Source of the DNA: Defluviitaleaceae bacterium
GTDB taxonomy: Bacteria > Bacillota > Clostridia > Lachnospirales > WQUN01
Length of the DNA: 32,258 nt
NCBI GenBank assembly: GCA_009785665.1
Contig: WQVV01000004.1
Location: forward strand, 1 to 32,258
Direction: 5' to 3'
Shown here: positions 759 to 32,169 of the stretch, in pieces
How the letters are laid out: each line of letters starts with the position of its first letter
Position numbering within the stretch: the first letter of the stretch is position 1
Notes under the pieces: model-generated
The model's input: the letters and a program-made list of their open reading frames with translations, nothing else
Databases searched by the model: none
What the model was told of the DNA's origin: nothing
Position numbers and translations under genes: made by a program

Positions 759-1780
759 GTTACCTCCAGTATTGCAGTTGTGAAATATTCTGGTAGGGGC
801 GAAGCAAAATCCATTTCTTCGCGGGTTGACGGGTGAGTGAAGCGTATGTTTGTTGCGTGCAGAATTTGCCCATTAAAGTGGGATTGCCGCTTTGCGTTGC
901 CGTATACTTCGTCACCTAGAATGGGGTGGCCTATGTGGGATAGGTGTACTCTTATTTGATGCGTGCGACCTGTTTCCAAATGGGCGACTATTAGTGTGTG
1001 ATTTCGGTATCTTTGTAAAATTTCTATGTTTGTGACGGCGTTTCTTGCGCGGGGGTGGGTTTGCGTGGGGGATAGAGCCGTCATTTTTTTTCGGTCGTGG
1101 GGGTGGCGGGTTATTGGCAGGTCTATTTTTAGGCGGTCGTTTTTTATTTTGCCTAGGCAGATTGCATTGTAAGTACGCCCCATAGTGCGTGCGTGCAATT
1201 GCTGCGATAGTGATAAATGTGCCGCGTCGTTTTTCGCAACAACAAGCAGCCCTGATGTGTCCTTATCTAAACGATGGACTATACCAGGGCGCAATACGCC
1301 ACCTATTCCCGATAATTCGCAGTGATGCAAAAGGGCGTTCACTAAAGTTCCAGTAGAATGACCCGCCGCTGGGTGTACCACCAGCCCACGCGGTTTGTCA
1401 ATAACAAGTAAATCCGAGTCCTCGTAAACAATATTAAGCGGAATATCTTCCGCCGCCGCCGCCAAAGGCACAGGAGCAGGAATTTCGCAAACCAAAATAT
1501 CCCCTGCTTTTACGCGATACTTCTTATCAACAGCCGCAAATGATAAAGTTTTTTGAAGAGGGGGTGTGGGGGAGAAACTTTTGTTCACATTCCTTTCGCT
1601 TCGCATTAGGGAATGTGACATCACAAAAGTTTCTCCCCCACGGTCTTCTCTTTTAATCTTTCCATCATTCAAAAGCCTCTGTGCCGCGCTTCTTGTTGGT
1701 ATTTCTTCTAAGCTCGTTAGAAAAATATCTGCGCGTTGGTTAGCGGCTTTGGGAGGGACTTCTATTTTTATTGTCTTCAT
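752..1780 (-). CDS. rluD: RluA/RluD-family pseudouridine synthase carrying an in-frame palindromic-repeat insertion
   Basis: S4-like N-terminus, HRLDKDTSGLLVVAK catalytic motif, GRTHQIRVHLSHIGHPILGDEVYG. About 37 extra codons between the S4 region and the catalytic domain. Confidence 0.9.
   Translation of the reverse strand: MKTIKIEVPPKAANQRADIFLTSLEEIPTRSAAQRLLNDGKIKREDRGGETFVMSHSLMRSERNVNKSFSPTPPLQKTLSFAAVDKKYRVKAGDILVCEIPAPVPLAAAAEDIPLNIVYEDSDLLVIDKPRGLVVHPAAGHSTGTLVNALLHHCELSGIGGVLRPGIVHRLDKDTSGLLVVAKNDAAHLSLSQQLHARTMGRTYNAICLGKIKNDRLKIDLPITRHPHDRKKMTALSPTQTHPRARNAVTNIEILQRYRNHTLIVAHLETGRTHQIRVHLSHIGHPILGDEVYGNAKRQSHFNGQILHATNIRFTHPSTREEMDFASPLPEYFTTAILEVTC
1542..1663. repeat. Copy D of the palindromic repeat family (right-half hairpin), inside rluD
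   Basis: aaagttttttgaagagggggtgtgggggagaaacttttgt ... acaaaagtttctcccccacggtcttctcttttaatcttt. Perfect 19-bp stem 1566-1584/1623-1641, 38-nt loop nearly identical to the loop of copy C. Confidence 0.85.
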
Positions 1781-7429: not shown

Positions 7430-7650
7430 ATAAAAGAAAAAAGAAAGACCTTGGGGGCGTTGCCCCCAATCCCCCACAAGGGGACACAGTCCCCTTGACC
7501 CCTTCTTTTGCGGCGATACAGCTTCACTAAATTTCCACTCATGTATAGGCGCAAATAAAAAGTTTTTTGGAGAGGGGGATTGGGGGAGAACCTTTTCTTC
7601 AGAAAAGGTTCTCCCCCAAGGTCTTAATCTTTTAATCTTTAATCAAATCA
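7430..7650. repeat. Copy A of composite palindromic repeat
   Basis: aagaccttgggggcgttgcccccaa; caaggggacacagtccccttg hairpin (7477-7497); ttgggggagaaccttttct-tc-agaaaaggttctcccccaa perfect hairpin (7580-7619); ggtcttaatcttttaatctttaatc terminal block. Confidence 0.9.
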
Positions 7651-10784: not shown

Positions 10785-12540
10785 AACAAAATTAATTACT
10801 ATTTATGCCGCTGTGGTTTTAGTTGTTATGACCGTTAGCGGCACGTTTATGTTGTTTACAGTTCGTAATATGGAAATTGACCAGACAGAGGATAATTTGC
10901 GACAGCGTGCCGAGACTATTAATAATCATATCGTGCAGGTGTATGGGCGTGATGCTATTCTTCGTGCGCAGGGTTGGCATTTGTTTGGACTAAGTGAGCA
11001 TGAACATGATATAGAGGGCGTGTTGTTAAGCGACTTGGGGATTCCAATTGCACCATGGGAATTTGTTGAAAACGAAGTGCGTTTTAATGACCGTTCGCTT
11101 ATGGAAGCGTTGACGGGTTCGGAATCGTTTAATGTGGGCAGTTTGGGGCTTGATATTACTGGCGCGGAACATCAATGGTTTACTTTCGCAATGCCCGTTA
11201 CCGTTGACGACGATAATTTTATAATTTACACCCGCGTGCGCATGTCTTATATGAATGAAAGCCTTAGCCGCCTAACGCTTAACCTCGTGTTGACTGTGCT
11301 GGTCGCGCTGGTGATTACGGTGGTTTTTTGGTTCTTTTTAGGAAGCACCATTACAAATCCTATTGTCGCGCTTACTCGCCATGCGAAGGCTATTGCTTCG
11401 GGCGATTTTTCTCGGGAAATTGAAGTTGTGGGCAATGATGAAATCGGGCAACTTGCATACGATTTCAACCACATGTCGCAGGAACTTCGCGCATCATTGA
11501 GTCGCATTACCAGCGAAAAAAACAAACAAGAGGCGTTTTTGCAAAATACTTCGCACGGAGTATTGGCATATGATGCCACGGGAAAACTGATTCATGCGAA
11601 CAACGCCAGCGGCGAACTTCTGCATGGTATGGATTTAAACACTGTGAATGTTCATCATACGTTAAAACTTTTGGGTTACGACCCAGACGATATTTTCAAA
11701 ATGCGCCCTGGTGAAGTTCGCGAATCCGTTCACGAGGAAGAGGATTATTTTCTCTACGCGACAATTACCCCTTACACCAGTGAAACGGGTTTGGTTGACG
11801 GATATGTTATAGTTCTGCAAGACATCACCCGCCAACAAAAACTTGACAATATGCGCAAGGAATTTGTAGCCAATGTGTCACACGAACTTCGTACTCCACT
11901 AACCAACATCAAAACATATTCCGAGACGCTATTAGACGGCGCAATCGAAGACCGCGAAATTTCCATGAAATTTCTAAAGGTAATCGACGACGAGGCTTCG
12001 CGAATGTCTCTGCTAGTCTCCGACCTTCTGGAACTTTCCCGCATAGATTCAAAACACGTAGCGTTGGAAATGGACATGGTAGACCTAGTGGCTCTACTTC
12101 GCTTATCAATACGGCAGGGGCAAATTCTAGCTGAACAGAAAAACCAGAAAATCACCTTCACTCCACCAGAGGGCGCGTGTTTCATAGAGGCCAACGCAGC
12201 CCGCATAAATCAAGTAATTTCAAACATTTTATCCAATTCCATAAAATACAGCCCCAACTCAACCACTGTAAAAATAACAATGGAAACCACCGAAAAGTAC
12301 TACCGCATTTTCATACAAGACCAAGGAATGGGAATCCCTCCCGAAAGCCTAAACCGCGTATTCGAGCGTTTCTACCGAGTAGACAAAGCCCGCGCCCGCG
12401 CCCTAGGCGGCACAGGCTTAGGTTTAGCCATAGTAAAAGAAATAATGGAAGAACACGGCGGCAGGGTATACGCTTCAAGCAACCCAGGGCAGGGAACAAC
12501 AATGGTACTAAGATTCAACAGGCTTGCGGAGGAGATATAA
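10771..12540 (+). CDS. walK: Sensor histidine kinase, WalK/YycG-like (HAMP, PAS, HisKA, HATPase)
   Basis: VANVSHELRTPLTNIKTYSETLLDGA, GTGLGLAIVKEIMEEHGGR. Confidence 0.9.
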   Translation: MRSIKTKLITIYAAVVLVVMTVSGTFMLFTVRNMEIDQTEDNLRQRAETINNHIVQVYGRDAILRAQGWHLFGLSEHEHDIEGVLLSDLGIPIAPWEFVENEVRFNDRSLMEALTGSESFNVGSLGLDITGAEHQWFTFAMPVTVDDDNFIIYTRVRMSYMNESLSRLTLNLVLTVLVALVITVVFWFFLGSTITNPIVALTRHAKAIASGDFSREIEVVGNDEIGQLAYDFNHMSQELRASLSRITSEKNKQEAFLQNTSHGVLAYDATGKLIHANNASGELLHGMDLNTVNVHHTLKLLGYDPDDIFKMRPGEVRESVHEEEDYFLYATITPYTSETGLVDGYVIVLQDITRQQKLDNMRKEFVANVSHELRTPLTNIKTYSETLLDGAIEDREISMKFLKVIDDEASRMSLLVSDLLELSRIDSKHVALEMDMVDLVALLRLSIRQGQILAEQKNQKITFTPPEGACFIEANAARINQVISNILSNSIKYSPNSTTVKITMETTEKYYRIFIQDQGMGIPPESLNRVFERFYRVDKARARALGGTGLGLAIVKEIMEEHGGRVYASSNPGQGTTMVLRFNRLAEEI

Positions 12541-12803
12541 GGTCAAAAGATTTAAAGTCAAAAGATTGAAGGTCAAAAGATTGAAGACCTTGGGGACGCT
12601 GTCCCCAATACCCCTGCAAGGGGACACAGTCCCCTTGACCCCGTTATTTTGCGGCATTACAGCTTCGTTAGATTTTTACTCAACTAAAGGCGCAAATGTT
12701 AAAATTTTTTGGAGAGGGGGTTTGGGGGAGAACCTTTTGTTTTACAAAAGGTTCTCCCCCAAGGTCTTAATCTTTTAATCTTTCAATCTTTTAATCTCTA
12801 AGG
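12538..12803. repeat. Copy B of composite palindromic repeat
   Basis: ggtcaaaagatttaaagtcaaaagattgaaggtcaaaagattgaagaccttgggg at the left; caaggggacacagtccccttg (12617-12637); perfect hairpin 12722-12762; inverted ccaaggtcttaatcttttaatctttcaatcttttaatctc at the right. Confidence 0.9.
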
Positions 12804-14967: not shown

Positions 14968-16068
14968 ATGCGGCACACGGTAATGATAGTTGATGATGTT
15001 TTCACAAATTTATTGCAGCTTGAAGAAATTTTGAAAGATCTTTATGAAATAATTCCAATGTCCAGCGGCGAGCGGGCGTTGCAACGGCTGGCGAAAGGCG
15101 CAATGCCTGATTTAATTTTATTGGACTTGGTAATGCCCAGAATGGACGGCTTCGAGCTATTAGAAAAAATTAGAGAAAATGATGCATATGTAGATATTCC
15201 AGTAATTTTTGTAACCAGCGACGACGATGCTTTTTCTGAAGAAAAAGGGTTAAGAATGGGTGCGGTGGACTATATCAAAAAGCCCTATGAAGCCAATATA
15301 ATTCGCATAAAAGTGCGCAACCACGTAGAACTAAAATCCTATCGCGATAATCTAACCGATAAAGTAAACGAGCGCACGCAACTACTAGAAGAACGCACAC
15401 GAGAACTACAAGCAACCCACAACGCAGTAATAATGGGAATGTCCTTACTTTCCGAGAGCCGCGACAAAGAAACTGGTTCGCATTTGCTACGCATTCAGTC
15501 GCTAACACGCATAATTGCTACAAAAATTTCACATTGGTATCCCGCAATCTTAAACAAAGACATGGTTGACCTTGTGGCCACATATTCCCCTCTTCACGAC
15601 ATAGGCAAGGTAAGCGTACCAGACGCGGTGCTAAAAAAAAGCGGCAAACTAACCGCCGAAGAGTTCGAGCAAATGAAGTCACATACTCAAGGTGGCGGCG
15701 ACCTTCTGCGTCAAATATCCAGCTTCATGCCAAATGAGTATAGCCAACTAGGCATAGCAATAGAAATAGCCGAAAACCATCACGAACGCTTCGACGGAAC
15801 AGGCTACCCAGCCCGCCGCGCAGGCGAAGAAATTCCCCTATCCGCCAGAATAGTAGCAGTAGCAGACGTATACGATGCACTAAGAAGCCCCCGCACCTAC
15901 AAGCGCGGTCTATCCCACAAAGAGGCCCTAAGCATAATCCTAAAAGGCGACGGCAGAACTCAACCAGCCCATTTCGACCCCTTAGTACTAAAGGCATTCG
16001 CCGAGACTCACGAAACAATACGCCAAGCCTACGACAGCAACCCCGACCCGTCGCTGATAGGGAGTTAA
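14968..16068 (+). CDS. Response regulator with HD-GYP domain (putative cyclic di-GMP phosphodiesterase)
   Basis: Receiver VMIVDDVFTNLLQL/LLDLVMPRMDGFELLE; HD-GYP motifs SPLHDIGKVSVPD and HHERFDGTGYP. Confidence 0.92.
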   Translation: MRHTVMIVDDVFTNLLQLEEILKDLYEIIPMSSGERALQRLAKGAMPDLILLDLVMPRMDGFELLEKIRENDAYVDIPVIFVTSDDDAFSEEKGLRMGAVDYIKKPYEANIIRIKVRNHVELKSYRDNLTDKVNERTQLLEERTRELQATHNAVIMGMSLLSESRDKETGSHLLRIQSLTRIIATKISHWYPAILNKDMVDLVATYSPLHDIGKVSVPDAVLKKSGKLTAEEFEQMKSHTQGGGDLLRQISSFMPNEYSQLGIAIEIAENHHERFDGTGYPARRAGEEIPLSARIVAVADVYDALRSPRTYKRGLSHKEALSIILKGDGRTQPAHFDPLVLKAFAETHETIRQAYDSNPDPSLIGS

Positions 16069-16275
16069 GGTCAAAAGATTTAAAGTCAAAAGATTTTAAA
16101 GTCAAAAGATTTTAAAGTCAAAAGATTTAAGACCTTGGGGACGCTGTTCACAGTGGCGCAGCGAGCGCAAGCGAACGTTTCCCGCGCCAATACCCCTGCA
16201 AGCTTTAAAAAAGCTTGACCAAATTTTGACGTTGGAATTTAAAAATGAGTGGGGAATTTTTTTGAGGTGATTGTT

Positions 16276-16485
16276 ATGGTTGCATATCAGTTTGAGGCTA
16301 CGACTGAAAATGGATTTATACGAATACCTGACGAGTATAGTCGGAAAATCGGAGCAAAAATAAAAGTCATCGTTTTGGACGATGACGGTGATATTGATGT
16401 TGACTGGGACGAACTATTCCCTCCGACTGTAGATACAAGCGTTTGGAAGTTCGATAGGGAGGAAGCTAATGCCCGTATTCCTTGA
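16276..16485 (+). CDS. Putative antitoxin of PIN toxin
   Basis: Small ORF MVAYQFEATTENGFIRIPDEYSRKIGAKIKVIVLDDD... overlapping the PIN ORF start. Confidence 0.75.
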   Translation: MVAYQFEATTENGFIRIPDEYSRKIGAKIKVIVLDDDGDIDVDWDELFPPTVDTSVWKFDREEANARIP

Positions 16486-16900
16486 TACAAACGTGCTGGT
16501 GTATCTATATTCAAATACAGAATCTCAAAAGCGTGACGCAAGTATATCTCTGTTCAAAAAATATACCTGTGTAACAAGTACGCAGGCACTAAATGAATTT
16601 TGCAATGTGTATATCCAAAAGTACAAAATTTCAAGCAAGGAATTGAAAAAATTCATAGGAAACATAATCAAATCGTGTGATGTGCGATTAGTAACCGAAC
16701 AAATTATCATAGACGCAATAAACTTAAACAACAAATATGGATATTCTTACTACGACTGCCTAATATTAGCGTCGGCACTGGACAGCAACTGCAACACCCT
16801 ATTTTCTGAAGACCTCCACAACGGACAAACAATAGAATCCAAACTAAAAATAACAAACCCATTCACCAACCTCCCCACTCAAGTACAGGCGCAGAAATAA
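16469..16900 (+). CDS. PIN-domain ribonuclease toxin (VapC-like)
   Basis: FLDTNVLVYLYS, ALNEF, YGYSYYDCLILASALDSNCNTLFSEDLHNGQ acidic motifs. Confidence 0.88.
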   Translation: MPVFLDTNVLVYLYSNTESQKRDASISLFKKYTCVTSTQALNEFCNVYIQKYKISSKELKKFIGNIIKSCDVRLVTEQIIIDAINLNNKYGYSYYDCLILASALDSNCNTLFSEDLHNGQTIESKLKITNPFTNLPTQVQAQK

Positions 16901-17025
16901 AGTTTTTTGGAGAGGGAGGATTGGGGGGAGAACCTTTTCTTCACATTCCTTTCGCTTCGCATTAGGGAATATGACATCAGAAAAGGTTCTCCCCTCAAGG
17001 TCTTAATCTTTTAAATCTCTAATCT

Positions 17026-22751: not shown

Positions 22752-23342
22752 TCAGCGCGAATTGCTGACGGTGTAGTTTATTCCAAGATAGACGGCATTT
22801 TGGTCGTCTTGCGAGACACCAATGTATCTTTTGGTGATGGCGTAGGAACTGTGATTGTAAATTTCCATTAGAATTACGGGGGACATTCCGCCACTCCATG
22901 AGTGGTAGCCGAAAGTTTTGCGTAGTGAGTGACAGCCTACCTTGTGTATTACGCCTATTGCGTCGGCGGCTTCGCTTATTAGGCGGTATGCATGTACTCG
23001 GCTGATTGATTTTCCTGTACTTAGATTGATTATTAGTGCTTCGCCTTGTTTTGCTTGCGGGTAGTATGATTCTAATGCTTTGATGATGTTTTTGTGTAGG
23101 GCTATGATTTTGTTTTTGCCTGTTTTCTTTTCGGTGAGGGTGAGGGTGATGCTTTTGCGAATGCGGCAGTTTGCGAAGTCGTAAACGTCTTCGCATTTTA
23201 GGCGAAGAATGTCGCTTATGCGTAGTGCTGTGTGCAGTGCTACTGTGACTAATACTTGGTTACGTAAATGCCCTTTGTTACGGTAATACGCGAGAAACGC
23301 TTGTACTTGACGCGGGTCGCGGATTGGTTCTGTTAGTGCCAT
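22752..23342 (-). CDS. Minimal tyrosine recombinase / site-specific integrase (catalytic domain only)
   Basis: TALRISDILRLK, HSLRKTFGYHSW, NHSSYAITKRYIGVSQ: R..HxxR..H/W..Y arrangement in 196 aa. Confidence 0.85.
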   Translation of the reverse strand: MALTEPIRDPRQVQAFLAYYRNKGHLRNQVLVTVALHTALRISDILRLKCEDVYDFANCRIRKSITLTLTEKKTGKNKIIALHKNIIKALESYYPQAKQGEALIINLSTGKSISRVHAYRLISEAADAIGVIHKVGCHSLRKTFGYHSWSGGMSPVILMEIYNHSSYAITKRYIGVSQDDQNAVYLGINYTVSNSR

Positions 23343-23477
23343 GATAGTTCCTCCTAAGATTTAAGTTAATTAAGTTGATAGTCTCCCATGTAACATAATA
23401 TCTATTGTGTTACATAGTTCGAGCAAAGCCCCAATTTTGCAGGGGTTTGCACAATATAATTCCGACCTCTCCGCGAA

Positions 23478-23505
23478 GATGAAATTCATCTTCGCTTTTT
23501 TTTGT
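23478..23505 (+). terminator. Terminator-like hairpin
   Basis: gcgaagatgaaattcatcttcgcttttttttg. Confidence 0.65.
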
Positions 23506-23658
23506 TGATTTTACTGAACCGCTGGACATGTAACACAATGATTTTGCTCCATTTTCAAGAGCATTTGCAACATGATTTAATCCATGATAGCATATGAAAA
23601 ACACAGCAATGGAGCGGAAAACGGAACTTTTGCGGTGTACCCCTTGATGTATCAATAT

Positions 23659-23714
23659 CGTAAGCGTCAAATAGAGCCGCGTATGTACAGAGGCGGCTCT
23701 ATTTGACGCTTACG
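23659..23714. repeat. Perfect 22-bp inverted repeat with 12-nt loop
   Basis: cgtaagcgtcaaatagagccgc gtatgtacagag gcggctctatttgacgcttacg. Confidence 0.9.
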
Positions 23715-23836
23715 CGGTATCGCCCGCAATTTGCGACATATAAAAACCGCCCGAAGGCGGCAATTATTGACGTAGGCGCATTGACTAACGTATAATGTTA
23801 TCTATAAGGTTATAGACCTATAAAGGAGTGATTTCA

Positions 23837-24046
23837 ATGTCCCAAGCATTTGCGGTCAGATATGATAATCGCCGTCCTAATATACCAAACGCTGAAACAT
23901 CTGTAGTGCCTGTTGAAAATTTTCAAAAAAACAACACTACAAGACAATACGACAGTCTTAGTGAGTTGTTCGATGGATATGTCGGTGAATTAAAATGTGA
24001 TGAATATGACTTTGGTGATGATGTAGGACGTGAAAAAATATGGTGA
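23837..24046 (+). CDS. Antitoxin of MazF/PemK-type module
   Basis: Small acidic ORF ending YDSLSELFDGYVGELKCDEYDFGDDVGREKIW, immediately upstream of the MazF-like gene. Confidence 0.75.
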   Translation: MSQAFAVRYDNRRPNIPNAETSVVPVENFQKNNTTRQYDSLSELFDGYVGELKCDEYDFGDDVGREKIW

Positions 24047-24078
24047 AATATAACCCAACATAAGGCGATATTATAATT

Positions 24079-24381
24079 ATGGATTTCAACCCAACAAAAG
24101 GGCGCGAACAAAAAGGTTTGCGCCCTGCACTTGTAATAAGCAATGCAGAATATTACCGCATGACAAAACTTATAATCGTATGCCCAATCAGCAATACTGA
24201 AAACACTTTTCCGTTAGACTTAAAATTAGATGCAAGGACGAAAACTACAGGCGTAATTTTATGCCAGCATATTAGAACTGTTGACCCAGAGGTTAGAACT
24301 GTATCATTTATAGAACGTCTACCAACTGACATTTTGAAAAATGTGTTGAATAGAACGGGATTGTTTTTCATACATAAATAA
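24079..24381 (+). CDS. MazF/PemK-family toxin (mRNA interferase)
   Basis: PTKGREQKGLRPALVISNAEYYRMTKLIIVCPIS, GVILCQHIRTVDPEVR. Confidence 0.88.
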   Translation: MDFNPTKGREQKGLRPALVISNAEYYRMTKLIIVCPISNTENTFPLDLKLDARTKTTGVILCQHIRTVDPEVRTVSFIERLPTDILKNVLNRTGLFFIHK

Positions 24382-24513
24382 TCCAGCTTTTTATAATAAT
24401 TATGTTATGGTGATTACAATGCCGCTAAAATACAGGGCTTTGTGATTGTTTTGTTACTAACCCGTTATTGATAATCAAAAAAGTACCCTGCATTTTTGCA
24501 AAAGTAATCGCAT

Positions 24514-24753
24514 TTACTCGACACGGTCTGAATCAAATTCGTTATTGGTGTCGTATTTTTCGGCTAGGTCAATACCTGTTCGTATTGCTTCGTCAACCTC
24601 TTTTTCCAGTTCCTCAATTGTGATGCTTTGCGGTATTATTTGAAGCGGAATCCAATGTTCAAAAATATCGAAATAGCGGTTGTCTATTTCATTGTACTTT
24701 TCAGAATTTATGTCAACCGTCCAATCTGCGAAAAACTCATCTCTACTTGTCAT
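24514..24753 (-). CDS. Small acidic protein, candidate immunity protein for the upstream MuF-type toxin
   Basis: 79-aa acidic ORF overlapping the end of the HEXXH-containing phage protein by 4 nt. Confidence 0.55.
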   Translation of the reverse strand: MTSRDEFFADWTVDINSEKYNEIDNRYFDIFEHWIPLQIIPQSITIEELEKEVDEAIRTGIDLAEKYDTNNEFDSDRVE

Positions 24754-26482
24754 TGTATCAAACCTCCTAGAATATCATCGAATTTTTTAATAGTTTCGGG
24801 AAAGTATTGTTGCAGAACCGCAAGGCGTGCGGGGTCAAATTGCGCTTCAAACAAATGCGCGAAAGCTTCCGTACTTGGTAGAATACTCTTCCAGTAGCCT
24901 TTGTCCCAATGCCCGTAATACCCTTTTATCTTACTTGTGTTTCCCGTACTGCTTAACCCGTGTAAAATATCAGAAACAGAAGATAGCAATTCCCTATCTT
25001 CTCCCCGCATTACTTCCCCTAAAATCCTATATGCATCCGTTTTGCGCTTTGTTCCCGCCGTCCTCATCGTATTTCTTATTAAATTATTGTAATCCAAGTT
25101 AAGCGTACTATCAAGCGCGGAAATATGCTCACTGCTTGCACGGTTGGCATAGTCAATTAAATGCCCTTGTTCATGGAAAAAGGTTGTACCGCTTCCACGT
25201 TTATTGCTTAGGTCGTTGACAAAGTTCATGTGAATACGCTTTTCGCGAGGGCTATACCATGCACCCTTCGCCGTTCCTGTGGAAACGCTGTTGTTTGGTA
25301 CGAAGCGATTGAAAACTTCTTTCGCTTTGTTTGTACCGTTGTTGAAACGCTGGATAAGTACTTCCCTATATCCGGGGGTAATGCCGCTTATACTATCCAC
25401 TTTTTCGGTGAAGGATTTAAGCGTAGAATCCATTTCTTGCAGGTTGCTTTTATCGCCGCCGTCAACGAATGTTTTCTTCCATTCGGGATATTTCATTTCG
25501 TTTGGTACATAGTATGTTTTGCCGCCTTCGTCCCGTGCCGCCCGTTGTCCTACGTTATCGTCAAAGTGGGGAACGGTCGTGCTTCTGCACCATGGGTGAA
25601 ATGGAGGCACGGTAACGCCAACTTTGTAATCATCTATTCGGATAACAATACCGTCCATTTTGCGGCATATCTCCGAAGTTTTTTTGTCCAGCGTTGCAAG
25701 GATTCTAATTAATTCAACTTCTAATTCACGATATACCGCTTCTTTCGCGATTGCGACAATCGCCGCCGATTCAGTCATAACAAGCCGTGCGGCGTTGCTC
25801 TTACTGGTATTTAGCTTGTCAGCAAGGTTATTAATTAACACATTTGACGGCGTTCCTGTAATCAAACCTTGTGTTAGCTGTGTTTGCAATTCATTTACAA
25901 GCTGGTCTTTATCTCTCCAAATTCTATCCGAAAATGTGAGATTATCCAACGTCCACGGTTTGCGTAGCAGGCTTTCAATTTGTGTTTCGTCTATGCCAGC
26001 AATATCCCAGCCGATATTAAAACCGCTTTGAACTTCAAAAATTGGGTGATAAAAGTTGTCAAGGAATTGCCGTTTCATAAGACTATCCACGGAATCTAAC
26101 TGATTGCCAAATAACCGCTCCATCGTGTGCTGGGTCTGGAGTTGCAGGGCTTCAAGGCGGGAAATATGCACCCGTGCGGATGCGTTTCAAGTTGTCTTAT
26201 CCATTGCCCGCTTACCGTGTTTTGTTTCGCATAGTCAATGTATTCTTCAACAGTCCAGCGAAATTCTGCTAACTCATTAGCATTTAACAGGCGGCGAGCT
26301 TCTGCAAGGTCAATTTGATTGTTTGTTGCAAAGCGATTATACCAGCCCGATATTTGATTTTGTAAATCCATTTGCGCGTTGGAGAAAATGCGTTCCATGC
26401 TTTGAATATGATTTTCGCCCGTTGTTGTTGTCATTTCCTCTATTGCTTCAAACCGTTGCTGCCAATAGTCGGTGTTTCTCAT
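24750..26482 (-). pseudogene. Phage minor head (MuF/SPP1 gp7-like) protein with C-terminal HEXXH domain; one apparent frameshift near 26183-26190
   Basis: ORFs 26096-26482 and 24750-26171 join as ...QWIRQLET|NASARVHISRLEALQLQTQ...; MuF region PPFHPWCRSTTVPHFDD; C-terminal TTFFHEQGHLIDYANR. Confidence 0.75.
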
Positions 26483-26607
26483 ACTTCATCAATTTCAATC
26501 GTTTGCACAAAAATATTGTCATTACTGTGCCTTTTTCCGATTTTAATAACACTTTCGTAAATTCCTAAATGCGGATTATCAATGTCAAGTTGTACAAGAT
26601 AGTTCAT
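26479..26607 (-). CDS. Small phage ORF (42 aa) upstream of the MuF-type gene
   Basis: MNYLVQLDIDNPHLGIYESVIKIGKRHSNDNIFVQTIEIDEV; stop overlaps the start of the MuF-type ORF (ATGA). Confidence 0.5.
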   Translation of the reverse strand: MNYLVQLDIDNPHLGIYESVIKIGKRHSNDNIFVQTIEIDEV

Positions 26608-26816
26608 TAAGCACTTGCCCCTGCGGTATCTTCATATTTACGCTTCATCTCAAAAGTTTTTAGTATATAGTTAGCATAAAATTTCTAAACTTAACCGCAG
26701 GTTGATTTTTTAATTGAAAACGCAACCTACCCAGTATGGTAAGTCCATTTAATTTTTGCTAACATGGATTTGTCCGAAAGGTAAGTGCGAAAGAAACAGA
26801 ATGCGGGAGGTGCTTC

Positions 26817-27647
26817 ATGTTAGATAATATTAGCGTAGGCAACCAAATTTTATTGCTGCGTAAACGAAACGGATTTACTCAAGATGAGTTGGCAGAAAAA
26901 TTAGGTATCAGCGCACAGGCAATCAGTAAATGGGAAAACGGTCACACTTTGCCAGAAACAGCATTGCTTCCGTTGTTGGCAAAACTCTTAAATTGCTCAA
27001 TTGATTCGATATTATCGCCAAACACGGTTAAAGAGGGTGACTTAATGAATTTTGGAAATTATGAGTGGCGTGTGTTGCAAGCAAATAATGACAGCGTACT
27101 TATTATCACGGAAACCACAATCGGCAAAGCCCCTTATAACGACCACATGGCTGACATCACATGGGAAAATAGCAACATAAGGAAATATCTAAACAACGAA
27201 TTTTACGACAAGTTTGTTCCAGCAGAAAAATCACAGATAGTAAAAACAAAACTGAGCGACCGTAATAATCCGTGGTATGACGCAAGGTGCGGCAATTCTA
27301 CATTCGATAAAATATTTTTGTTAAGCTATGATGAGGTTGTCCGATATTTTGGCGATAGTGGCGATTTGCAAAACAAAAAAGGCTGGTACTGGAAAGAACA
27401 TGACGGAATTGCGCCCTGCGATGATAACTGTCATTTGCAATATGGCGATTGCATCTACGACCAATATAATGATGCGCGAAAGGTTCAAAATGCTAAGGGG
27501 GAAGATAATTGGTGGTGGCTACGCTCTCCCGGTCATGTGAGCCATACTGCTGGCAGCATAGGATATGTAGGCGAGTTGTTTCTTTGCGGTGATGATGTGT
27601 ATAGAGTTGACGGCGGTGTTCGTCCTACTCTGTGGTTGAGCCTATGA
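26817..27647 (+). CDS. XRE-family HTH fused to DUF6273-like domain
   Basis: HTH GNQILLLRKRNGFTQDELAEKLGISAQAISKWENG; C-terminal WWWLRSPGHVSHTAGSIGYVG...GGVRPTLWLSL. Confidence 0.85.
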   Translation: MLDNISVGNQILLLRKRNGFTQDELAEKLGISAQAISKWENGHTLPETALLPLLAKLLNCSIDSILSPNTVKEGDLMNFGNYEWRVLQANNDSVLIITETTIGKAPYNDHMADITWENSNIRKYLNNEFYDKFVPAEKSQIVKTKLSDRNNPWYDARCGNSTFDKIFLLSYDEVVRYFGDSGDLQNKKGWYWKEHDGIAPCDDNCHLQYGDCIYDQYNDARKVQNAKGEDNWWWLRSPGHVSHTAGSIGYVGELFLCGDDVYRVDGGVRPTLWLSL

Positions 27648-28393
27648 CAGCTTATGAGCTAATGATTAAGACCAACCGCGCCCTTATTAGGGGCATGACG
27701 TTTAACGATGTGCAAAAATTAAACATTGCTCGTCAGTTACGTGAAAACAGAATAACCGACGGACGCAAAAGAACCTTTGATGCGTATGCGTATCCAAAAT
27801 TTTATATTCCGCCGCACAATAATGGAAAGAAACTTCAAACGATTATTCCCATGTCGCCTAAAACAAATATCGTTGCTGACAATGCTTACGAGTTTGAGAT
27901 AATTCGCCTATTGCATTTATTCCAACCAGACGATGAAGTTGCCCATATGATTGAGGTGACAACAGACCGCTTGAAGCAAACTTGTTTTGGCTACCAAAGT
28001 TGCCATTATGCAGACTGCTTTGACGCAGGAATGATGGTGTTGCGCTTTTTATCTTTTGCCGTCACAGATGACCGCGATTGGATTAAAAAGCAAATTGATA
28101 TGTACAACAATCACTTTGATGATAAACGTCGCCATAATGGTGTTCAGAAATATTATTGGCTCATTCTTTCCGATATGCCTTTTGAAATTGCAGAGCCGGA
28201 AATTATGCTCCAAAAAGAATATATCATTGACCACTTAAACCGCACTTACTTAATAAAAAACGGCAATGAGGATGTAGCCTTATATACAATGCGCAACGCA
28301 TTATCTCGTTTGCCGGAGTATGCGTATATCAAAGACCGCAAGCCTTATGTTTGCGAGAAAACCGGGCGTTTTCAATTTAATTTGAGCAAGTAA
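27644..28393 (+). CDS. Uncharacterised protein, translationally coupled to XRE-DUF6273
   Basis: ATGA overlap with the preceding gene; long intact ORF; no family recognised. Confidence 0.7.
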   Translation: MTAYELMIKTNRALIRGMTFNDVQKLNIARQLRENRITDGRKRTFDAYAYPKFYIPPHNNGKKLQTIIPMSPKTNIVADNAYEFEIIRLLHLFQPDDEVAHMIEVTTDRLKQTCFGYQSCHYADCFDAGMMVLRFLSFAVTDDRDWIKKQIDMYNNHFDDKRRHNGVQKYYWLILSDMPFEIAEPEIMLQKEYIIDHLNRTYLIKNGNEDVALYTMRNALSRLPEYAYIKDRKPYVCEKTGRFQFNLSK

Positions 28394-28418
28394 ACCAGCC
28401 AAAACAAGGAGGCATGAA

Positions 28419-29765
28419 ATGAACAAACAATGGCTTTCACAGCTTGCTGATGCTGTTGAAACGAAATATGGCAAAGATGCGCGTGAGCGTATTTTTGGTG
28501 ATATTGAAAGTATGGTAAACAAACATGAATGTTTGTCGGATTGGTTTGGAAAATTCACAAATAGCTTGGATGAACTTAATGATAAAGATTTTTTGCAAAA
28601 GATGATGGCAAACTTTTGTCCTTGCGGCGGTGATTACGAAAAAATCGGCAAGGCATACAGATACATTTATGACAAAAGCAACAGCTTGGCGGAGTTTGTA
28701 GATGCTCAAAGGCAATGGCATCTTGATGAATACGGAGATGCAGATGTCATGGAACTTCGTGGTAATGTATTGTATATGACAAAGCCGCTGGGTGATTCTA
28801 CGGACATAGGAGGCTGCGGTAAGGGTTGCCATTGCTGGCTTGCTAAACATACAGATACTGTGGTGTCAGATATATTTTGCCATTGCTGCACCATTGGACA
28901 TACAGGCCGCCCTTTCCAAGTTGCGTTCGGTGATGATATTAAAATGGAACTTGTCGAGAGCATTGTTTGCGGCGGCAATAAATGCGTAATGACAATTCTA
29001 TTGCCTGAAAAAGAGAAGGTTAATATAGACGATTTAACACTATGCAAACATGGGTTCAACATATATTGCGAAATGCTGGCAGCACCCACCGGCTTTGAAG
29101 TTGTGCGGGAAAGAAACTATTCATACATCACGAGAGAAACATTAAGGCCAACCATGGTTATTTTTAATGTGACCGTTAAAAAAAATCATCATGAATTTGC
29201 AAGTAATCTAACACATCTCATTAAATCTGAAAAGGTTGGCAATCATTATGAACTCGTAAAAGATGACATCTTATTTGAAGCCTTGAAGAACAGTGGGTTT
29301 TCTATAAGCCAAGAGGATTCAATGTTAATAATGGATATAGCAGATTATGGAGTGGATTTGTCACAAGATAGCAAAATCAATATTTCTGTGGTGCGTACTC
29401 TGGAGGAATTGAAGCATTGGACGGCAATAAATCGTGGATATTTCGGGGATTTATATACTGATGAAGAATGGGAAGAAATCCACGACCAAAACAACGTCAC
29501 CATGTATCTGGCAAGTTCCGCAAGCGTTCCAGCGGCATCCATGCTTACGATAACGGATGGCTCGGCGTGTATTGAACTGCTGCATACCCTTCCTGACTAT
29601 AGAAAGAAAGGGCTTGCTTCGGTTATGATTAAACGAGCATTGTCTGATTTGTCAGCTCAAGGCGTATCCAAAGTAACCGTACAAACAGGTGCGGTTGACT
29701 TGTTTGCAAAAATCGGATTTTCGGTTGTTTGCGATAAATATGTAGCAAGATTAGCAAGCCCATAA
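28419..29765 (+). CDS. Two-part protein: Cys-rich N-terminal domain fused to C-terminal GNAT acetyltransferase
   Basis: CPCGG, GGCGKGCHCWLAKH, CHCCTIGHTG, CGGNKC; C-terminal ELLHTLPDYRKKGLASVMIKRAL GNAT acetyl-CoA motif. RBS aaggagg. Confidence 0.75.
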   Translation: MNKQWLSQLADAVETKYGKDARERIFGDIESMVNKHECLSDWFGKFTNSLDELNDKDFLQKMMANFCPCGGDYEKIGKAYRYIYDKSNSLAEFVDAQRQWHLDEYGDADVMELRGNVLYMTKPLGDSTDIGGCGKGCHCWLAKHTDTVVSDIFCHCCTIGHTGRPFQVAFGDDIKMELVESIVCGGNKCVMTILLPEKEKVNIDDLTLCKHGFNIYCEMLAAPTGFEVVRERNYSYITRETLRPTMVIFNVTVKKNHHEFASNLTHLIKSEKVGNHYELVKDDILFEALKNSGFSISQEDSMLIMDIADYGVDLSQDSKINISVVRTLEELKHWTAINRGYFGDLYTDEEWEEIHDQNNVTMYLASSASVPAASMLTITDGSACIELLHTLPDYRKKGLASVMIKRALSDLSAQGVSKVTVQTGAVDLFAKIGFSVVCDKYVARLASP

Positions 29766-29819
29766 AATTTGGTGTGGTAGTGGTTCTATTCGCCGGCATA
29801 AGAAATTAAAACATCCCGC

Positions 29820-29866
29820 AAAGCCCCTAATTTACACGGTTTGATGTGTGAAATAGGGGTTTTTTA
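29820..29866 (+). terminator. Intrinsic terminator of the XRE-DUF6273 operon
   Basis: cccctaatttacac ... gtgtgaaataggggtttttt. Confidence 0.75.
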
Positions 29867-30086
29867 CATTTTCAAGAGGATATATTTTCGGAAAGCACTT
29901 GACAGCGGTACAACCCCAAATATTGCGATGTTATCGTACAACGGTTTATAAATTCAACTGATTGCACGGAAAATATATTTTTATTGCGAAACGGTAAAAA
30001 ACTCTGCTATCCCAATTTAGAGTTGTTGGGCGATGCAGATTAAGAGCGCGATGAATACGCAACAGCTAATACGATAATAACCAAGG

Positions 30087-30110
30087 TTGCCCCATGCGGG
30101 GCTTTTCCTT
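30087..30110 (+). terminator. Short terminator-like hairpin
   Basis: gccccatgcggggcttttcctt. Confidence 0.4.
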
Positions 30111-30139
30111 GTGCAATGTATTAAAAGGCAGGTGAGGTG

Positions 30140-30982
30140 ATGCCAAGGCAACGAAGTCCCAACAGAGATAACAAAACTCGAAGCCGTAAATCCAATCCCG
30201 AAGGGCGTAGCCTCCTTCGCAACGCATATCAAGATTGGTACTTCAAACGGCGCGTTCGCGAATATGAAGGAATTGGAATTGAACGCGACCTCGCAGGTTA
30301 TCCCTATATTCAGCCACCTGTAGGCGTAGAACTATACGACCACGAAGGCAACCCCACCGACCAATTGGTCGCGGCTGAAAACATTGTGCGAAAAATACGC
30401 CGTGACGAAAGCGAAGGACTTGTATTACCTCACGGCTGGAACTTCCAACTCGTTTCTACAGGGGGAAAGCGACAGTTTGATACTAATGCAGTTATTCAGC
30501 GTTACGACAATCGCATTGCAATGACATTTTTAGCCGATTTCATTTTACTTGGACATGAGAAAGTGGGCAGTTTCGCGCTTTCAAGCGACAAGACACAACT
30601 TTTCGGCATAGCAATGGGAACTTTTCTAAACATGATATGTGAAGTGTTCAACAGCCAAGCCATACCACGCCTAATTCAAATGAACGGCGACGCATTCAAA
30701 GGCATAACCGCATACCCAGAACTCATCAACGGTCAGATTGAAACCCAAAACCTAGGTGAACTGGGCGAGTTCTTGAAGCACACAGTTTTGAGCGGTCTAA
30801 TCACTCCAGACGAAAATCTTGAAGACCACCTGCGCATGGTTGCCGACCTTCCCGAGCGCGACCCAATGACTGCATATGGCAATACATCAAGAACACCCGA
30901 AGCGCAGTTCACGCGAACAGGAGGATTGACACCTACCGTACCACCACCTGTGACCACTGAAAGCAAGAACGTGCCGCATTAA
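30140..30982 (+). pseudogene. 5'-truncated phage portal-like protein (C-terminal part)
   Basis: NPEGRSLLRNAYQDWYFKRRVREYEGIGIERDLAGYP resembles the C-terminal half of phage portal proteins; starts mid-domain. Confidence 0.65.
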
Positions 30983-30995
30983 GGAGGGGTAATCC

Positions 30996-32169
30996 GTGGC
31001 ATTATTTAAAATAAGAAAACCCATAGTTGCCCGAAAACCCTCTAGTAGCTACTTCACCATAAGAAAATCAAGCGACATCAAAGAAGAAACCCTTCAACGC
31101 CTTCGCTCATTTTTAGACGTTGAAGAACCAAAGGCGATTGAATTTCTAGTAAGCTTCTGGGCAGAGCAACAATCTGCAATAAGCTACGCCGAAATAAAAA
31201 ACATGATTGCTTCGTGGAATCCGTCGAATGAAATTCTCTCGCAATGGCAACAAGAATATGCCGCGCTGGTCAATAACCACCTCGCGCCCCAATGGGAACG
31301 AACAATGTTACATGCGGCGGAAGAACGGCGGCGGCAATTCCCACTTCTGCTATACGACCCTGCAATAATCGCAACGCAGGAATATATTCAACAACGCGGC
31401 GCGGAATTAATCACAATGCTATCGAACGAGCAACGCGACGCAATCCAAGCAATTAAAGCAATGATAGCGCAAGCCTCGCACTACGAAGCAATGCCCCCAG
31501 ACACACTTGCCCGAATTATCCGACCTACAATTGGATTAGGGCGTGTTGCCACTACGCAAACGGCACGATTTTTGCGGCAATTTTTCGCCAATCAAGGAGG
31601 ATTTCGCGCCGCGTCCTAGACGGACGCAAGTGAAATCCCGACGCAGAGTGGCGGAAAATTGACCAAAAAGCGTGCCGTTTGCGTAGTGGCAACACGCCCT
31701 AACTGTTCCGCAAGCGCAAGCAAACTTTCGATATTGGAATGCAGTCTGGCTTGCAGGTGTAGAATCGGGCATATCTTCCCGCGCCGCAGAAGAACGCGCA
31801 AACCGATTAGCGGCAACATACGCGGCAAGGCAACACCGCTACCGCTCCATGAGCATAGCCCGAACAGAATTAGCAATGGCGTACAACGAAGGAGCATACG
31901 GCGCAACAATAGCCGCACAAGAACAAGGCTTCCTAGGAGATGTTCGTAAACGCTGGCTAACCGCCGCCGATGAGCGCGTATGCCCCATATGCGCACCGCT
32001 AGACAACACAATTGTAAATTTGAATGCGTTCTTCCCAAACGGAATTAAATTACCACCTGCACACCCACAATGCCGCTGTGCAATCGCCTTTGAAGAAATC
32101 ACAGAAAACTTGCAACCAACAACAGGCGGAAGTATAATAGACCTGTCCGACAACCGTAAAGTTTGGTAA
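30996..32169 (+). pseudogene. Phage head morphogenesis (MuF/SPP1 gp7-like) gene interrupted by a MITE-like hairpin
   Basis: ORF 30996-31619 ends inside the hairpin. After removal, ...IIRPTIGL|TVPQAQANFRYWNAVWLAGVESG...MSIARTELAMAYNEGA...DERVCPICAPLDN...PPAHPQCRCAIAF reads as one protein. Confidence 0.85.
31539..31699. mobile_element. 161-bp MITE-like palindromic element flanked by TA
   Basis: gggcgtgttgccactacgcaaacggcacg and exact reverse complement at the ends; TA at 31537-31538 and 31700-31701; nearly full-length pairing with apex gcgtcc-tagac-ggacgc. Confidence 0.88.

Follow-up and report, generated by a model that had tools for sequence, protein, structure and literature searches.

The rluD gene of the genome under study (G000) harbors an in-frame palindromic insert which, in our judgment, is very probably a module of a non-autonomous composite element of the MITE/REP type that behaves like the Rickettsia palindromic elements (RPEs), its in-frame insertions into protein loops being kept and translated. 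The gene encodes a pseudouridine synthase of the RluD/YlyB type, 342 amino acids long with the insert, and lies on the minus strand at positions 752 to 1780 of the 32,258-nucleotide stretch of DNA analysed here (the window). The initial annotation had proposed a protein-invading palindromic element in a Firmicute, comparable to RPEs, a proposal supported by the empty orthologues and the many copies described below. The phenomenon is wider than that annotation could see, as many core genes of the genus contain other modules of the composite element in frame.

The insert corresponds to the right module of the composite element (1532 to 1647, minus strand), which runs from the terminus AAGACC (1647-1642) to a conserved ATTTGCGGCT end and codes for about EDRGGETFVMSHSLMRSERNVNKSFSPTPPLQKTLSFAA. 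Its outer hairpin is formed by two 19-bp arms at 1566-1584 and 1623-1641 (plus strand), which are 100% complementary, and between them lies a nested inner palindrome, TCACATTCC...GGAATGTGA (1585 to 1618). A perfect 19-bp stem in a frame that stays open had been claimed for this repeat, and both points hold, no stop being found across its whole length; the interval given, 1542-1663, does overlap the element but misplaces its borders, taking in a few native codons at one end and leaving out about 10 bases at the other. The extra codons are likewise real, although relative to G007, the nearest orthologue, they amount to a net gain of about 33 residues and not 37. Folded as RNA, the repeat region reaches -49.9 kcal/mol (z = -8.6), a value as low as which was obtained in none of 200 shuffles. 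Translation of the insert is inferred, as there are no expression or peptide data; NVNKSFSPTPPLQK is an example of a peptide that spans its border.

An AlphaFold model of RluD built from 23 sequences had a mean pLDDT of 85, the catalytic domain being mostly well predicted, with residues 50-62 and 64-67 below 50. The insert falls in a beta-hairpin of the S4 domain, with strands 42-45 and 81-83 on either side, and is modeled as an unstructured segment on the loop of that hairpin. The earlier placement in a domain linker is therefore wrong, since the loop is inside the S4 domain and does not connect it to the catalytic domain.

The three intergenic copies named in the initial annotation, at 7.5, 12.7 and 16.9 kb, are all present, and their comparison reveals that the repeat, while multicopy as stated, is not a complete unit, being one of several modules of a composite with inverted ends, AAGACCTTGGGG...CCCCAAGGTCTT. 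Full composites, holding both left and right modules, are found between genes at 7445-7625 and 12584-12768 (both plus strand); as seen in the latter, the order is the AAGACCTTGGGG start, left module, spacer, right module and CCCCAAGGTCTT end, and the left module read from the other strand gives GGGGTCAAGGGGAC..GTCCCCTTG.... The terminal inverted repeats expected of a MITE are present in the full composites, whereas solo modules have only one such end. One of these solo right modules, at 16878-17014 (plus strand), overlaps the last codons of the ORF at 16469-16900 and matches the rluD repeat end to end with 85% identity; it alone among the three copies shares the inner palindrome, which is missing from those at 7.5 and 12.7 kb. 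Elsewhere in the genome this palindrome, CACATTCCTTTCGCTTCGCATTAGGGAATATG, occupies the loop of some right modules and may point either way (opposite to most in L022 and L025), which suggests, as an inference, that it is itself a nested insertion; its core gave 34 matches with up to 2 mismatches, against 1 for the reversed control.

Other features of the window were recorded along with the element. Short tandem repeats of 15-16 nt, TAAAGTCAAAAGATT-like, lie just outside composite elements at 12538-12582 and 16066-16127. The ORF at 16469-16900, PIN-like by eye, stands between a left-end-like stretch at 16111 and the solo right module (16111-17014 overall), and may sit within a split composite. 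The start of the contig (1-156) holds an inverted repeat with 60-nt arms that are 85% complementary and a 36-nt spacer, apparently another palindromic family. At 22752-32169 an integrase-like ORF is followed by ORFs that look by eye like head-morphogenesis genes, a likely prophage or remnant, and a further inverted repeat (31536-31702, 39-nt arms, 97% complementary) lies at the end of this phage-like region. A search of the window against Rfam returned no known RNA family.

The high copy number of the repeat was observed directly. A 121-base query yielded 68 matches in the 3.03-Mb genome, and the pattern of the hairpin arms, allowing up to one mismatch, was matched 126 times compared with 0 for the reversed control. 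Once overlapping matches were merged, 69 distinct copies of the right module, each 70 bp or longer, remained in the loci retrieved, which sample parts of the genome. Most of them lie between genes and only two are inside protein genes, those for RluD and HemW, both in frame, the latter gene being cut off by its short contig. The peptides they encode are nearly the same (EDRGGETFVMSHSLMRSERNVNKSFSPTPPLQKTLSFAA versus KDLGGETFVMSYSRMRSERNVNKSFPPNTSPLKNFYVAA). Occurrence of a multicopy hairpin repeat both between genes and inside ORFs is one mark of protein-coding palindromes, and it is seen here. None of the 69 copies breaks the frame in the interior of a gene or separates two halves of one broken gene; L015, L106 and L108 were considered as broken genes and rejected, the copies there lying between two different genes. 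Several long ORFs containing the repeat (e.g. L003, L088, L093, L123, L251 and L252) were not counted, being antisense readings or extensions of gene ends.

Comparison with orthologues identified empty sites, as had been anticipated. Six of the nine other RluD proteins in the genus (G001, G002, G004, G006, G007 and G009) and the family outgroups lack the insert, the alignment including 14 other family members, one of which (G034) has a longer loop of different sequence. The same loop is filled in two other species, in G005 by a left module in frame (GVKGTMSPCGGIGGETPKVLKN) and in G003 by a different palindromic insert. The HemW site is empty in G001, G003, G004, G007 and the outgroups, while G002 and G006 retain shrunken relics starting with AAGACCTTGG there, and G005 a relic of the right end. 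That conserved proteins unrelated to one another carry in-frame insertions which their orthologues lack is thus established by observation.

These sites can be read in another manner, namely as one ancient insertion of a full composite at each site followed by differing loss of modules (for instance in RluD of G000, G003 and G005) without recurrent invasion. The single HemW site at which four species have a copy or a relic, and in-frame copies with several modules in MutS2, MnmE and an RlmI-like methyltransferase, speak for it. Nevertheless, a tree of the RluD core does not group the carriers into a clade and requires 3 changes, with several forks within the genus unresolved; moreover, the RluD insert of G005 is 95% identical to another copy in the same genome and that of G000 has 89% identity to a second copy in G000, although modules from other species come fairly close to both as well. 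We consider a single old insertion at every site unlikely, yet a real possibility, and at some sites the differences may reflect divergent decay of one old insertion and not repeated insertion. Such a history is a variant of our preferred explanation, a mobile module tolerated in protein loops, and not an alternative to protein invasion.

A search across the genus, whose genomes are all multi-contig drafts, extended the observation to 32 in-frame interior cases (gene by species) in 23 genes. Cases were found by single-module peptide searches and inspection of the matches; since peptide searches rank open frames, frame-breaking insertions in other species would go unseen. Besides RluD and HemW, G000 has a case in MiaB. 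In G003, with 19 cases, the modules are found in RluD, a radical SAM protein, an acyl-CoA dehydratase activase, a P-type ATPase, MutS2, three ABC transporters (one at a contig edge), PrmC, a CodY-like regulator, RsmF, MnmE, an LD-carboxypeptidase, an RlmI-like methyltransferase, a glycosidase, LigA, a MetH-like protein, AddB and Tgt. The remaining cases are the HemW relic, MnmE and QueG in G002; RluD, the HemW relic, the acyl-CoA dehydratase activase, RimO and an RlmI-like methyltransferase in G005; the HemW relic in G006; and an ABC transporter at a contig edge in G009. Most names come from family models, the RlmI-like protein of G003 being named by its likeness to that of G005 and the glycosidase by reading alone.

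Solved structures delimit several of these inserts. Chains of MiaB align on both sides of the left module, 42 residues of the query facing 3 in the chain (net insertion ~39), and solved homologues flank in the same way the inserts of Tgt (~47 residues net) and MnmE (~58 residues net); in LigA, too, the alignment is interrupted where the repeat lies, across a broader region. Readings of the right module cover at least three frames and both strands, and some orthologous loops hold different modules in different species. It is possible, and we advance it only tentatively, that in different species of one Clostridia genus this modular palindromic family keeps entering the same permissive loops of core enzymes, each time independently, with interchangeable modules read in several frames, and so continues to supply new protein segments outside the Rickettsiales.

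In the RlmI-like methyltransferases of G003 and G005 (L376 and L260), different modules end at the same point before the conserved NLFAYTG, both giving PKVLNLFAYTG, which suggests either a site preference or shared ancestry. Weak left-module-like peptide matches (L220, L233, L242) were seen in G022, from another genus of the family, with 27 matches in its genome.

It could also be argued that the repeats are retained for a function, as terminators or mRNA stabilisers between genes and as useful binding or regulatory segments within them. The strong hairpins between genes are in keeping with this, as is the conservation of the left module across species, the best copies in G000, G003 and G006 matching the one in G005 RluD at 85-89% identity. 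Tolerance fits better than a shared function, because the enzymes that carry inserts are unrelated, several frames and both strands are used, and sister species have the inserts shrunken or not at all; function is accordingly an improbable explanation. Even less credible is that the ribosome skips the hairpin, or that it is removed from the message, in such a way that the protein never contains the insert. Translational bypassing elements exist in some yeast mitochondria, and a very stable hairpin within a coding sequence would suit such a process. Skipped elements need not keep the frame, though, and both interior copies among the 69 of G000 do so, none being in a broken-frame gene; the interior cases of other species are also in frame, but these were found by an open-frame search. 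An assembly artefact or pseudogenes can be practically dismissed, for in spite of draft assemblies and repeats that are often at contig ends, inserts occur at the same site in separately assembled species and well inside contigs, with intact frames and conserved catalytic motifs.

Under the explanation that we favor, a short composite palindromic element, multicopy in a Clostridia genus, would occasionally insert into protein genes. It would have inverted ends and be non-autonomous, an enzyme not identified here copying or moving it in trans, so that its mobility remains an inference. Insertions that break genes would be purged by selection, which would leave most copies between genes, whereas those in frame in surface loops would survive and be retained; the ribosome would then read through the hairpin and produce a hydrophilic, probably disordered peptide, whose near-neutrality for protein function is likewise inferred. 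As for the mover, a RAYT/IS200-type transposase was rejected, as the 90.7% complete assembly has no match to Y1_Tnp (PF01797), the only transposase family searched. The flanks of the elements were listed and no clear target duplication was established, and searches of phage, plasmid and viral collections did not turn up the element.

The many filled and empty sites over ten genomes constitute a natural data set on the tolerance of loops, the decay of inserts and the gain of function, and they warn annotators that such peptides derive from repeats.

Protein-coding palindromes have so far been described as a trait of Rickettsia; they are also reported from Wolbachia, and a few MITE fusions are known from other groups. 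No report of such elements in Clostridia was found in the open-access literature, the coverage of which is incomplete. RPEs are hairpin repeats that occur as in-frame fusions in many protein genes (Ogata et al. 2000, 2002; PMC2229807, PMC10969869), and a translated insert in a functional protein was reported for the guanylate kinase of R. conorii, the one enzyme tested (PMC2229807). The element described here resembles them in being ~100-150 bp long, hairpin-forming and multicopy, with several families per genome, and in occurring both between genes and in frame within many unrelated conserved proteins; it differs in its modular composite structure with inverted ends and nested palindromes, and in its host, a genus of Clostridia whose draft genomes measure 1.7-3.0 Mb. 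The placement of this host in the Clostridia rests on a scan of genome contigs in which no relative exceeded 56% identity and the best were mostly Clostridia. Seven insert peptides had no match in NCBIfam at E≤10, although the presence of RPE models there is unconfirmed and no RPE DNA was compared; on this evidence no sequence relation to RPEs was detected, and we do not place the element within the Rickettsia families. The palindromic repeats within protein genes of Wolbachia (Ogata 2005, cited in PMC2229807) are alike in their location inside host genes and belong to another lineage, no sequence comparison having been made. With ERIC, Correia/NEMIS and other bacterial MITEs, for which ORF fusions have been listed, it shares the short length, non-autonomy, terminal inverted repeats and occasional in-frame fusions (PMC2229807); it departs from them in the large number of insertions inside conserved enzymes seen in at least one species (19 cases found in G003), and in that target duplication was not shown. 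Like REP elements with their RAYT transposases it forms multicopy intergenic palindromes (PMC3733652), but the genome lacks the Y1_Tnp match that would define a REP/RAYT system, and the elements here also enter proteins. As the same behaviour is seen in a Clostridia genus with an apparently unrelated element sequence, the comparison suggests more than one origin for the invasion of proteins by short palindromic elements, and that the lifestyle of the Rickettsiales is not needed for it.
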